A DNA stretch of 64,000 nt from Ignavibacteria bacterium (GTDB lineage Bacteria; Bacteroidota; Ignavibacteria; Tepidaquicellales; OLB5). The first letter of the stretch is position 1. Every line of letters begins with the position of its first letter. The stretch is from the NCBI GenBank assembly GCA_020852705.1, contig JADZAP010000001.1:62001-126000 (forward strand), given 5' to 3'. The notes under the pieces are model-generated. The model did not search any database, was not told where the DNA came from, and worked only from the letters and a program-made list of their open reading frames with translations. A program made the translations under genes and the position numbers. Shown one piece after another: positions 8,048 through 32,532 of the stretch.

Positions 8048-8076
8048 CCCTCCCCTTCGGGGAGGGCTAGGGAGGG
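8048..8076. repeat. intergenic palindromic repeat, CCCTCCCC family
   Basis: Perfect eight-pair hairpin CCCTCCCC-TTC-GGGGAGGG, followed by CTAGGGAGGG, a further copy of the right arm. It has no T-run, so it is not an ordinary terminator, although it sits between two convergent genes. It resembles the CCCCTC...GAGGGG elements at 19004, 20492 and 32283 and is probably a dispersed repeat. Confidence 0.6.
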
Positions 8077-16017: not shown

Positions 16018-16043
16018 AAAGCCCCGAATTTCTTCGGGGCTTT
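16018..16043. terminator. bidirectional terminator (pld / groEL)
   Basis: AAAGCCCCGAA/TTCGGGGCTTT stem with a four-base loop, A-run on the left and T-run on the right. It lies between the convergent PLD and groEL genes and can serve both. Confidence 0.85.
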
Positions 16044-18265: not shown

Positions 18266-19249
18266 ATGAAATACCTTCTATACATTTTACTCGGATTTAC
18301 TCTTACCGGCAGATTAATGGATATTTATGCATGGGATTCAACTGCGGCAAAATATATGCCGCTTCAAGTTGGAAACCAATGGGTATACATGGGTTCGGCT
18401 CATGCATATATTCAGAACGGAAGGTCATACACTGTTTATAAAATTACAGGAACTGCCGATACACTTGGTCACCATTATTACAGGATTGAAACTAGGGTTT
18501 ACATGATAAGCGGTACTATCAGCTCAGGGGTTATGCAATTTTCAAACATGGTAAGGATAGATTCCTTATCAATGAATTTTAAAAAGCTTTGGTTTTATTG
18601 TAATGTTAATGAAACCTCAATTGACAGCTTAAGCTCAAAAAAAACGGATTCATTAAAAATTTGTCCGCAGCAGTTTTATACATCAAGCAGTTATTGTTAT
18701 GATACATCAGCATATTCAATTTTTGGTGTTAGTTATCCGTCAAAAACATTTCATGAATTCTTTGGGCCGGGATATAGTACAATATATGTAAAAGGTATTG
18801 GTATAGTTTTCAGCAGCTATGGTTATCAAATGAACCAATCTACGGATACATTAATAGGCTGCGTTATAAACGGAGTTGTTATTGGTGATACTTCAATTCT
18901 GGTAGGCTTACAACAGATCAATTCAGAAATTCCTGAACGATTAGTGCTTTCCCAAAACTATCCCAACCCCTTCAACCCGGTTACAAAAATAAAATTTCAA
19001 ATTCCCCTCTTAAGAGGGGTGAATGCCGAAGGTGGACGGGGTGTGTTTACTAATCTCACAATCTACGATGCCCTCGGCAAAGAAGCTGCCGTTTTACTTA
19101 ACCAACAACTACAACCCGGCACTTACGAAGCTGACTGGGATGCATCAAATTATCCAAGCGGCATTTATTATTATCAGATATCAATCCATTCAGGTAAACT
19201 TGAAACTGAAAACTATACTGAAACCAAAAAAATGGTTTTAATAAAATAG
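18266..19249 (+). CDS. secreted protein with T9SS sorting domain, 327 aa
   Basis: A signal peptide is followed by about 215 residues of unknown fold, Ser/Tyr/Thr-rich and beta-like (WVYMGSAHAYIQNG, KNGRS-type turns). The last roughly 100 residues are the T9SS sorting domain: SQNYPNPFNPVTKIKFQIP, then LTIYDALGKE, LQPGTYEADWDA, YPSGIYYYQI and KKMVLIK. It should be exported across the outer membrane and attached to or shed from the surface. An extra peptide of about 14 residues (LLRGVNAEGGRGVF), absent from other sorting domains here, is encoded by a palindromic element (see 19004). The final 318 bases nearly duplicate the end of the next gene. A GGAGGT Shine-Dalgarno precedes the ATG. Confidence 0.82.
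   Translation: MKYLLYILLGFTLTGRLMDIYAWDSTAAKYMPLQVGNQWVYMGSAHAYIQNGRSYTVYKITGTADTLGHHYYRIETRVYMISGTISSGVMQFSNMVRIDSLSMNFKKLWFYCNVNETSIDSLSSKKTDSLKICPQQFYTSSSYCYDTSAYSIFGVSYPSKTFHEFFGPGYSTIYVKGIGIVFSSYGYQMNQSTDTLIGCVINGVVIGDTSILVGLQQINSEIPERLVLSQNYPNPFNPVTKIKFQIPLLRGVNAEGGRGVFTNLTIYDALGKEAAVLLNQQLQPGTYEADWDASNYPSGIYYYQISIHSGKLETENYTETKKMVLIK
19004..19045. repeat. palindromic element inserted in frame in a T9SS domain (copy 1)
   Basis: A perfect 16-base palindrome CCCCTCTTAAGAGGGG (19004-19019), followed by TGAATGCCGAAGGTGGACGG and GGTGTG. It adds the peptide LLRGVNAEGGRGV between the first two strands of the sorting domain without breaking the frame. Palindrome arms resemble the intergenic repeats at 8048 and 32283. 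Confidence 0.7.
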
Positions 19250-27162: not shown

Positions 27163-27238
27163 GCTGGCGTAGCTCAGCTGGTAGAGCAGCGCACTTGTAA
27201 TGCGCAGGTCGGGGGTTCAAGTCCCTTCGCCAGCTCCA
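27163..27238 (+). tRNA. trnT: tRNA-Thr (anticodon TGT)
   Basis: Full cloverleaf: acceptor GCTGGCG/CGCCAGC, anticodon stem GCGCA/TGCGC with loop CTTGTAA (anticodon TGT, reads ACA), T-loop GGTTCAAGTC, discriminator T, and encoded CCA. A terminator follows directly. About 45 bases further on a broken second copy begins (27321). Confidence 0.97.
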
Positions 27239-27242
27239 GAAG

Positions 27243-27266
27243 CCCGTTAATTTAGCGGGTTTTTTT
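27243..27266 (+). terminator. terminator of tRNA-Thr
   Basis: CCCGTTAA/TTTAGCGGG stem with a G-T pair, then seven Ts. It is repeated exactly 182 bases further on as part of the broken tRNA copy. Confidence 0.85.
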
Positions 27267-27332
27267 ATGAGTATTATCCTTGCAGAGATCAATTTGAAAT
27301 CAAAATTAAACAATTTTTTTGGTAGAGCAGCG

Positions 27333-27348
27333 TCCCGAGTTCTCGGGA
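27333..27348. repeat. 16-base palindrome TCCCG...CGGGA, copy 1
   Basis: TCCCGAG-TT-CTCGGGA, seven pairs. It replaces the six anticodon-loop bases CACTTG of the duplicated tRNA-Thr. Confidence 0.85.
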
Positions 27349-27368
27349 TAATGCGCAGGTCGGGGGTT

Positions 27369-27384
27369 TCCCGCTAAAGCGGGA
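27369..27384. repeat. 16-base palindrome TCCCG...CGGGA, copy 2
   Basis: TCCCGCT-AA-AGCGGGA, seven pairs, the same length and the same outer five bases as the copy 21 bases upstream, but different inner bases. It replaces part of the T-loop of the duplicated tRNA-Thr. Confidence 0.85.
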
Positions 27385-27458
27385 TTTCGCAGAAGCTCAA
27401 CAATTCCTTCGCCAGCTCCAGAAGCCCGTTAATTTAGCGGGTTTTTTTATGAGTATTA

Positions 27459-31977: not shown

Positions 31978-32067
31978 GGAGAGGTGGGTGAGTGGCTCAA
32001 ACCAACGGTTTGCTAAACCGTCATAGGGGGTTAACCTCTATCGAGGGTTCGAATCCCTCCCTCTCCG
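31978..32067 (+). tRNA. trnS: tRNA-Ser (anticodon GCT)
   Basis: Class II tRNA with a long variable arm: acceptor GGAGAGG/CCTCTCC, anticodon stem ACGGT/ACCGT with loop TTGCTAA (anticodon GCT, reads AGC/AGT), and T-stem GAGGG/CCCTC with loop TTCGAAT. Discriminator G. CCA is not encoded, unlike tRNA-Thr in this window. A TAAATTTG box (31942-31949) lies about 30 bases upstream and fits the Bacteroidota -7 pattern. Confidence 0.97.
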
Positions 32068-32088
32068 CATTAAAGTAGAATCGTTAAG

Positions 32089-32123: not shown

Positions 32124-32222
32124 TGGCTCAAACCAATCCCGAGAGCCGAGAATTAAACGTGTGATTAATTTAACCCTCAACTGCCCGGCAGTTCAATCGA
32201 GGGTTCTCCCCAAGGGACTCTG
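32124..32222 (+). pseudogene. broken tRNA-Ser copy with palindromic replacements
   Basis: Directly after the terminator T-run, pieces of the tRNA-Ser unit recur in order: TGGCTCAAACCAA (13 bases, from 31993), TTAACC (from the variable arm), ATCGAGGGTTC (11 bases, from 32040) and AAGGGACTCTG (11 bases, from the terminator at 32104). Between them the anticodon arm is replaced by a 33-base stretch beginning TCCCGAG, and the base of the T-arm is interrupted by the palindrome AACTGCCCGGCAGTT (32179-32193). The acceptor stem is absent. It is not a functional tRNA. More decayed than the tRNA-Thr copy. Confidence 0.7.
32179..32193. repeat. 15-base palindrome in broken tRNA-Ser copy
   Basis: AACTGCC-C-GGCAGTT, seven pairs, placed between the variable-arm remnant and the T-arm remnant. 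Confidence 0.75.
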
Positions 32223-32282
32223 TTAAGTCCTTAAGTCCTATGGAGAGATCTTGCCTTGCGAAGAAGAAGTTTAATAATTTCT

Positions 32283-32315
32283 CCCCTCTCCTATTAGGAG
32301 AGGGGCAGGGGAGCG
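32283..32315. repeat. intergenic palindromic repeat, CCCCTCTCC family
   Basis: CCCCTCTCCTA-T-TAGGAGAGGGG (32283-32305), eleven pairs, followed by CAGGGGAG, a further piece of the right arm. It has the same architecture as 8048-8076 and as the in-frame element at 19004. Just upstream, TTAAGTCC is repeated in tandem (32223-32238). The rest of 32223-32532 shows no gene. Confidence 0.65.
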
Positions 32316-32532
32316 GTGATAATCTATTCTTCATATTAGGGTCAAATCCGAAGGGAACTCTACGTAGTGGATTGTCTTGTAAATGATAGGTCATAAATCA
32401 AACTCCCATTTTTGTTACTTTACAAAATATTTTATAAAGTATCAATTAATGATACTTATTTAAAAATATATATTTTTATTTTTAAACTTTACTAATATTG
32501 AAATATTAATTTAAATTGTTTTTTTTAAATAG

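Follow-up and report, generated by a model that had tools for sequence, protein, structure and literature searches.

Palindromes in displaced tRNA gene copies of an Ignavibacteria genome and their possible link to small tRNA-targeting GIY-YIG elements

We analyzed a window of 64,000 nucleotides from an Ignavibacteria bacterium (GenBank assembly GCA_020852705.1, contig JADZAP010000001.1, positions 62,001 to 126,000 of the forward strand), in which two short palindromes interrupt a displaced copy of a tRNA-Thr gene. With moderate confidence, we read the palindromes as plugs in this copy, and the copy together with its terminator and plugs as either a relic or a small non-autonomous representative of a tRNA-targeting GIY-YIG element family. 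The tRNA-Thr locus has the following features.

27163..27238, + strand: intact tRNA-Thr(TGT) gene (ARAGORN; Rfam RF00005, 70.7 bits)
27242..27276, + strand: terminator-like hairpin GCCCGTTAATTTAGCGGG, T-run and ATGAGTATTA, 3' of the intact tRNA-Thr (from the sequence; repeated at 27424-27458)
27277..27319, no strand: AT-rich spacer of 43 bp (from the sequence), without a GIY-YIG gene (no GIY-YIG match in the genome falls here)
27320..27332, + strand: start of the tRNA-Thr copy, D-loop to 5' anticodon stem (TGGTAGAGCAGCG; match to the intact tRNA)
27333..27348, no strand: palindrome 1, TCCCGAGTTCTCGGGA, in place of CACTTG of the anticodon region (junctions 29|35)
27349..27368, + strand: tRNA-Thr copy, 3' side of the anticodon to T-stem (TAATGCGCAGGTCGGGGGTT; match to the intact tRNA)
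27369..27384, no strand: palindrome 2, TCCCGCTAAAGCGGGA, inserted in the T-loop (junction comparison with the intact tRNA)
27385..27400, no strand: rest of the T-loop insert (TTTCGCAGAAGCTCAA), 16 bases (from the sequence)
27401..27417, + strand: tRNA-Thr copy, T-stem and 3' acceptor strand (CAATTCCTTCGCCAGCT; match to the intact tRNA)
27424..27458, + strand: duplicated terminator-like hairpin, T-run and ATGAGTATTA (sequence and positions)

Both palindromes are perfect over 16 bp with 7-bp arms, and the fixed TCCCG/CGGGA ends and differing but paired centers given in a preliminary description of this DNA are exact in the sequence; the spacing, given there as 21 bases, is 20. The copy is truncated at its 5' end and runs from 27320 through the same terminator-like hairpin as the intact gene, and it was read from an assembly of 75 contigs. 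At this locus, Rfam gave no match above threshold besides the intact tRNA. The gene and its copy are separated by 81 bp with no gene, and hence no integrase gene, within, and no nuclease gene or recognizable remnant of one was found at the Thr and Ser loci of the window. In each of the 12 genus relatives this tRNA-Thr gene stands without a copy, and the gene after it is in nearly all of them the same PAS/response-regulator kinase gene, so the copy and its palindromes are derived in the lineage of the window. A tRNA-Thr(TGT) copy from a different family of the class also bears a TCCCG palindrome ahead of the same TAAT. The T-loop inserts of tRNA-Thr (27385-27400) and, at the same place, of a tRNA-Leu copy from another part of the genome (locus L010, near 1517-1543) continue past the palindrome in a common frame, TCCCGN6CGGGATTTCG...CTCAA. 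Further GC-rich perfect hairpins in the window are found at 8048-8066 (CCCTCCCC arms), 16018-16043 (AAAGCCCCGAA arms), and 19004-19019 (CCCCTCTT arms).

The second displaced copy in the window belongs to a tRNA-Ser gene.

31978..32068, + strand: intact tRNA-Ser(GCT) gene (ARAGORN)
32124..32365 (3' end approximate), + strand: broken tRNA-Ser copy (match to tRNA-Ser; same CCAA junction in three related species)

This copy is interrupted three times: by a degenerate TCCCGAG palindrome at 32137, directly after ACCAA, by AACTGCCCGGCAGTT at 32179-32193, and by a long T-loop insert bearing CCCCTCTCCTATTAGGAGAGGGG at 32283-32305. The degenerate palindrome had been listed in the preliminary description as a further member of the family, and its place in a broken tRNA copy makes it the same kind of thing. 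The CCAA junction of tRNA-Ser copies holds a palindrome in 4 species, and the palindromes differ; the nuclease gene accompanies the palindrome in two relatives, is absent at the window's locus, and is not nearby in one more relative.

At least nine tRNA genes of the genome have palindrome-interrupted copies, located 5' or 3' of them (Thr, Ser, Val, Leu(GAG), Leu(CAA), Arg(TCT), Arg(ACG), Asp, and the tRNA at C54:38993-39066). Most copies are without the 5' acceptor strand or without the 3' end, and in the tRNA-Asp copy one palindrome is nested inside another. The expectation that such palindromes would lie in hairpin-forming and duplicated genes was borne out, the duplicated genes being tRNAs. 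At locus L080, a palindrome from a different family, TTGGAAATGCTTCGCATTCCAA, is present in a 5' copy of tRNA-Leu and in an incomplete repeat of that copy (about 1234-1370), both 5' of tRNA-Leu(CAA). At L102, L135, L137, L143, and L148, GIY-YIG genes are adjoined by long tandem arrays of repeats that bear hairpins and derive from tRNA-Leu(CAA).

The genome searched, an incomplete assembly of 2.94 Mb in 75 contigs (97.6% complete), has 10 TCCCGN6CGGGA sites, while about 0.2 are expected (0.21 under a first-order Markov model fitted to the window). The reversed control of the genome has 0 sites, and no match appeared in any of 100 dinucleotide shuffles of the window. Pairing extends past the five fixed bases at 9 of the 10 sites. 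Five of them are in broken tRNA copies, two are in or at CRISPR repeats, one is within a protein-coding gene and is probably a coincidence, and two are unexplained; with settings this mixed, the bare 16-mer defines no clean family.

Related palindromes are also found beyond tRNAs, in CRISPR repeats, at dispersed sites (dispersed also in relatives), and inside other repeats. In the CRISPR array of locus L005 (G000:C6:12149-15164) and in L004, some copies of the repeat GTTGTGATTTGCTTTCAAATTGTTCTTTGACGATATTTGTTACAAC are interrupted by the palindrome CCCCGATAAAATCGGGG, and TCCCGATTTATCGGGA interrupts at the array edge. One order-level relative (G022, loci L186-L197) has 143 TCCCG palindromes, and most of the 15 inspected are REP-like (GAT)TCCCGC..GCGGGAATGAC repeats, so the bare 16-mer is not diagnostic. 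More than 10 TCCGCC palindromes per genome were seen in only two genomes of the genus, both with closely related tRNA-Met nucleases, which is a weak association (n=2).

A search of 395 genomes across the phylum for a D-stem followed by a TCCCG palindrome returned 97 matches, while its reversed control returned 17 (both totals added up by hand from a table). The gap between D-stem and palindrome is exactly one base in 70 of the 97, and in 66 of the 97 the gap base is A or G, the palindrome arms are at least 6, and the palindrome starts directly after tRNA base 26. In these 66 clear cases, TCCCG/CGGGA palindromes with variable but paired centers stand in place of the anticodon arm. An intact tRNA is close by in nearly all of the fetched loci of this type and in none of the clearly non-palindromic matches. 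Among the 46 distinct palindromes at this position, the sixth pair can be A-T, C-G, or T-A, more pair types occur further in, and 43 of the 46 pair past the fixed five bases (the p-value is only indicative, assuming 0.3 per pair and independence), in agreement with the earlier claim that pairing and not sequence is conserved.

The junctions are fixed per isotype. In Bacteroidota, Met copies keep the tRNA to 36/37 and resume after 46/47, Asn copies in Patescibacteria have the junction 13|16, and Lys copies 23|31, while in Ile and Pro copies the palindrome replaces exactly the anticodon arm, and in Arg(ACG) it is a pure insertion at 22, both in this genome and in Marinoscillum. Between 0 and 17 nt are lost at the junctions, and the palindrome position (D-loop, anticodon arm, T-loop) differs between isotypes. 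We dropped a strict rule that only loops are interrupted, since several palindromes replace stems or whole arms. Hairpins of other kinds are found in the elements at Leu(CAA) and Ser(GGA).

The genome has 4 small GIY-YIG genes, each no more than about 130 bp from a tRNA gene. For 34 of the 72 GIY-YIG loci in the genus, there is a tRNA within 400 bp, where about 1% would be expected (45 tRNAs in a 3 to 4 Mb genome). At 20 GIY-YIG loci without an ARAGORN tRNA, there is a tmRNA about 1 kb away in three (L118, L122, L113), a weak tRNA in one, and no known RNA in the others. Many GIY-YIG genes of a longer, 100-130-residue group have no tRNA nearby. Related loci with an 80-96-residue GIY-YIG gene between an intact tRNA and a plugged copy are found in Bacteroidota, Cloacimonadota, and Patescibacteria; in a scan of the collection with a single-protein query (ten GIY-YIG proteins made too heterogeneous a profile), most of the homologues with names from other phyla were likewise tRNA-adjacent, among them those of Chitinophagaceae, Ferruginibacter, Lutibacter, Bacteroidales, Cloacimonadota, and many Patescibacteria. 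Carriers among cultured Bacteroidota include Marinoscillum pacificum and Mongoliibacter ruber. In one of the two layouts seen, an intact tRNA is followed by the nuclease gene and then by a palindrome-bearing 3' fragment; in the other, a 5' fragment that bears the palindrome comes first, followed by the nuclease gene and the intact tRNA. The short inserts measure about 80 bp to 0.5 kb, and no integrase was seen in them. The nucleases tested have 81-96 residues and one GIY-YIG domain, with UPF0213 and SLX1 as the nearest solved relatives. Viral contigs yielded one relative, so this subfamily is not carried mainly by phages.

On a tree of 73 tRNA-adjacent nucleases, the clades follow tRNA isotype, which changes 24 times, compared with 51.6 (sd 1.8) when shuffled, and within the genus there are 11 changes for 12 isotypes, which is the minimum; part of this signal may come from vertical inheritance at a fixed locus. 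For the 50 nucleases with a palindrome of the TCCGC, TCCCG, CCTGC, or one other family within 450 bp, palindrome family changes 4 times, compared with 17.4 (sd 1.4) when shuffled, across different isotypes and positions, on a nuclease tree that has 81 columns only and many open forks. Palindrome families follow nuclease lineages, and the palindrome is most simply read as belonging to the element.

Complete members of the proposed family carry a small GIY-YIG nuclease gene, which lies between an intact tRNA and a palindrome-bearing tRNA fragment in either orientation. The nuclease, by analogy with the phage enzyme SegB, would cut the tRNA gene of one isotype, and repair would copy the element in and rebuild an intact tRNA on one side, with the host's own piece staying on the other. 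The palindrome would be the cis-acting hairpin of the element, substituting for whichever tRNA arm or loop the cut falls in or close to, and the displaced piece with its plug would presumably no longer be cut and no longer make tRNA. Because pairing is strict, with fixed ends and a free center, the palindromes suggest that a protein, most likely the nuclease, reads them as hairpins. The data show the anatomy, relatives with empty sites, GIY-YIG genes associated with such loci, nuclease clades specific to isotypes, and palindrome families linked to nuclease lineages. The account of how the palindrome may work, including cutting, homing, immunity, and hairpin reading, is a proposal, and we infer the descent of the window's Thr and Ser copies from nuclease-bearing elements from their shared architecture and, for tRNA-Ser, the shared junction. 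Several observations weigh against the explanation. The intact neighboring tRNA still contains the presumed target, which leaves the immunity of a locus with the element unaccounted for; the Thr and Ser loci of the window have no nuclease gene; palindrome positions vary and some palindromes replace stems; other hairpins are used at Leu(CAA) and Ser(GGA); and related palindromes occur outside tRNAs. A bolder version, which we put forward only tentatively and with considerable doubt, is a new class of minimal mobile element in which an 80-96-residue SLX1-like GIY-YIG nuclease recognizes DNA hairpins, swaps an arm of a tRNA gene for its own palindromic hairpin, leaves plugged copies behind, and mobilizes nuclease-free copies, such as the two in the window, in trans.

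The palindromes could instead be independent nano-palindromes, comparable to REPs or to the GC clusters of yeast mitochondria, inserting wherever they are tolerated and preferably in hairpin loops, in which case the broken tRNA copies only tolerate and reveal them and the nuclease is a neighbor, not a partner. The palindromes of CRISPR repeats, those inside repeats or nested in palindromes, and their dispersal in relatives would fit, but junctions fixed per tRNA isotype over species and phyla, the sharp start after tRNA base 26, the tracking of nuclease lineage by palindrome family, and the failure to detect a Y1 transposase in the genome would not, and we consider this possible but doubtful. 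GC-rich hairpins near tRNA genes are expected in an AT-rich genome, yet that the palindromes are ordinary transcription terminators or the product of chance is hardly credible, given that there is no T-run behind those at 27333 and 27369, that both are inside a tRNA copy with its own terminator-like hairpin, and that chance is refuted by the genome counts.

We regard it as unlikely that the copies are transcribed as functional tRNA-like RNAs, in which the swap of hairpin for arm keeps a tRNA-like fold and which serve as decoys or regulators, for example against tRNA-cutting toxins or as an antitoxin to the nuclease. Such a role would explain the replacement of stem-loop by stem-loop with exact boundaries in several isotypes, the conserved pairing, the tandem arrays that adjoin tRNA, and the location of the window's copies 3' of terminator-like hairpins, one of them with its own; however, a cloverleaf is impossible in most copies, which are missing the 5' acceptor strand or the 3' end, and the palindrome position is not constant. 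Repair scars, with cut tRNA genes mended using any hairpin DNA at hand and palindromes as functionless by-products, would be consistent with the 0 to 17 nt lost at junctions, but the same stems at the same junctions over phyla, with ends and pairing conserved, and the association of palindromes with nuclease lineage make them very improbable.

Among the closest known systems is SegB of T-even phages, described in PMC13096335 (which cites Brok-Volchanskaya 2008 for it) as a free-standing GIY-YIG homing endonuclease of tRNA gene regions that cuts inside tRNA genes at the motif RAWTSGAAC (by our reading, the T-loop in reverse complement) and multiplies tRNA and nuclease gene as tandem copies. As with SegB, a GIY-YIG nuclease gene adjoins tRNA genes in the family and at four loci of this genome, although not at the Thr and Ser loci of the window. 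In contrast to the phage-borne SegB, the bacterial elements are chromosomal and their proteins are single domains of 80-96 residues, and the passages on SegB in PMC13096335 do not mention palindrome-plugged tRNA fragments. Fragments of tRNA genes in prokaryotes are the subject of PMC9897764. Integrase-type elements at tRNA genes, such as ICEs and prophages, likewise restore an intact tRNA on one side and leave a displaced fragment on the other, but no integrase was seen in the short inserts here, and some of the fragment has given way to a palindrome.

REP elements with RAYT (TnpA-REP) are also small palindromes in many copies, but as characterized in the REP passages of PMC3733652 they are GTAG/CGTC-tagged, 20-40 bp long, and high in copy number, whereas the palindromes of the window are 16 bp, have 10 sites in the genome, and sit inside tRNA copies. 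There is no GTAG/CGTC foot at the window palindromes, which are flanked by tRNA sequence (CAGCG| and GGTT|), and Y1 transposase (PF01797) had 0 matches in the window's genome (97.6% complete) and is present in 12 of 12 relatives. The reading of the palindromes as structure-dependent elements is supported as to conserved pairing and duplicated genes, while a REP/RAYT-type system is not supported, and the candidate enzyme near related loci is the GIY-YIG nuclease. Mitochondrial GC clusters and other repetitive hairpin elements share small size, GC-richness, AT-rich host genomes, mobility, and conserved pairing (PMC4478555, PMC2800124), but GC clusters belong to eukaryotic organelles and are larger (42 nt for GC42), and the accounts of them in these two papers report no link to a nuclease lineage. 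The open-access literature that we searched contained nothing direct for bacterial chromosomes on tRNA-associated GIY-YIG elements or on palindromes in bacterial tRNA copies, and a selfish, tRNA-targeting element family of this kind across many bacteria is apparently undescribed.

A widespread family of selfish elements of very small size appears to reside at the chromosomal tRNA genes of Bacteroidota, Cloacimonadota, and Patescibacteria. The model directly predicts cutting of tRNA genes. If it is right, a single catalytic domain of about 80 residues would be enough for site-specific spread. The palindromes would then be plugs or tags that go with a nuclease lineage, and this would account for the origin of many GC palindromes and tRNA fragments that so far lack an explanation where they lie near tRNA genes.
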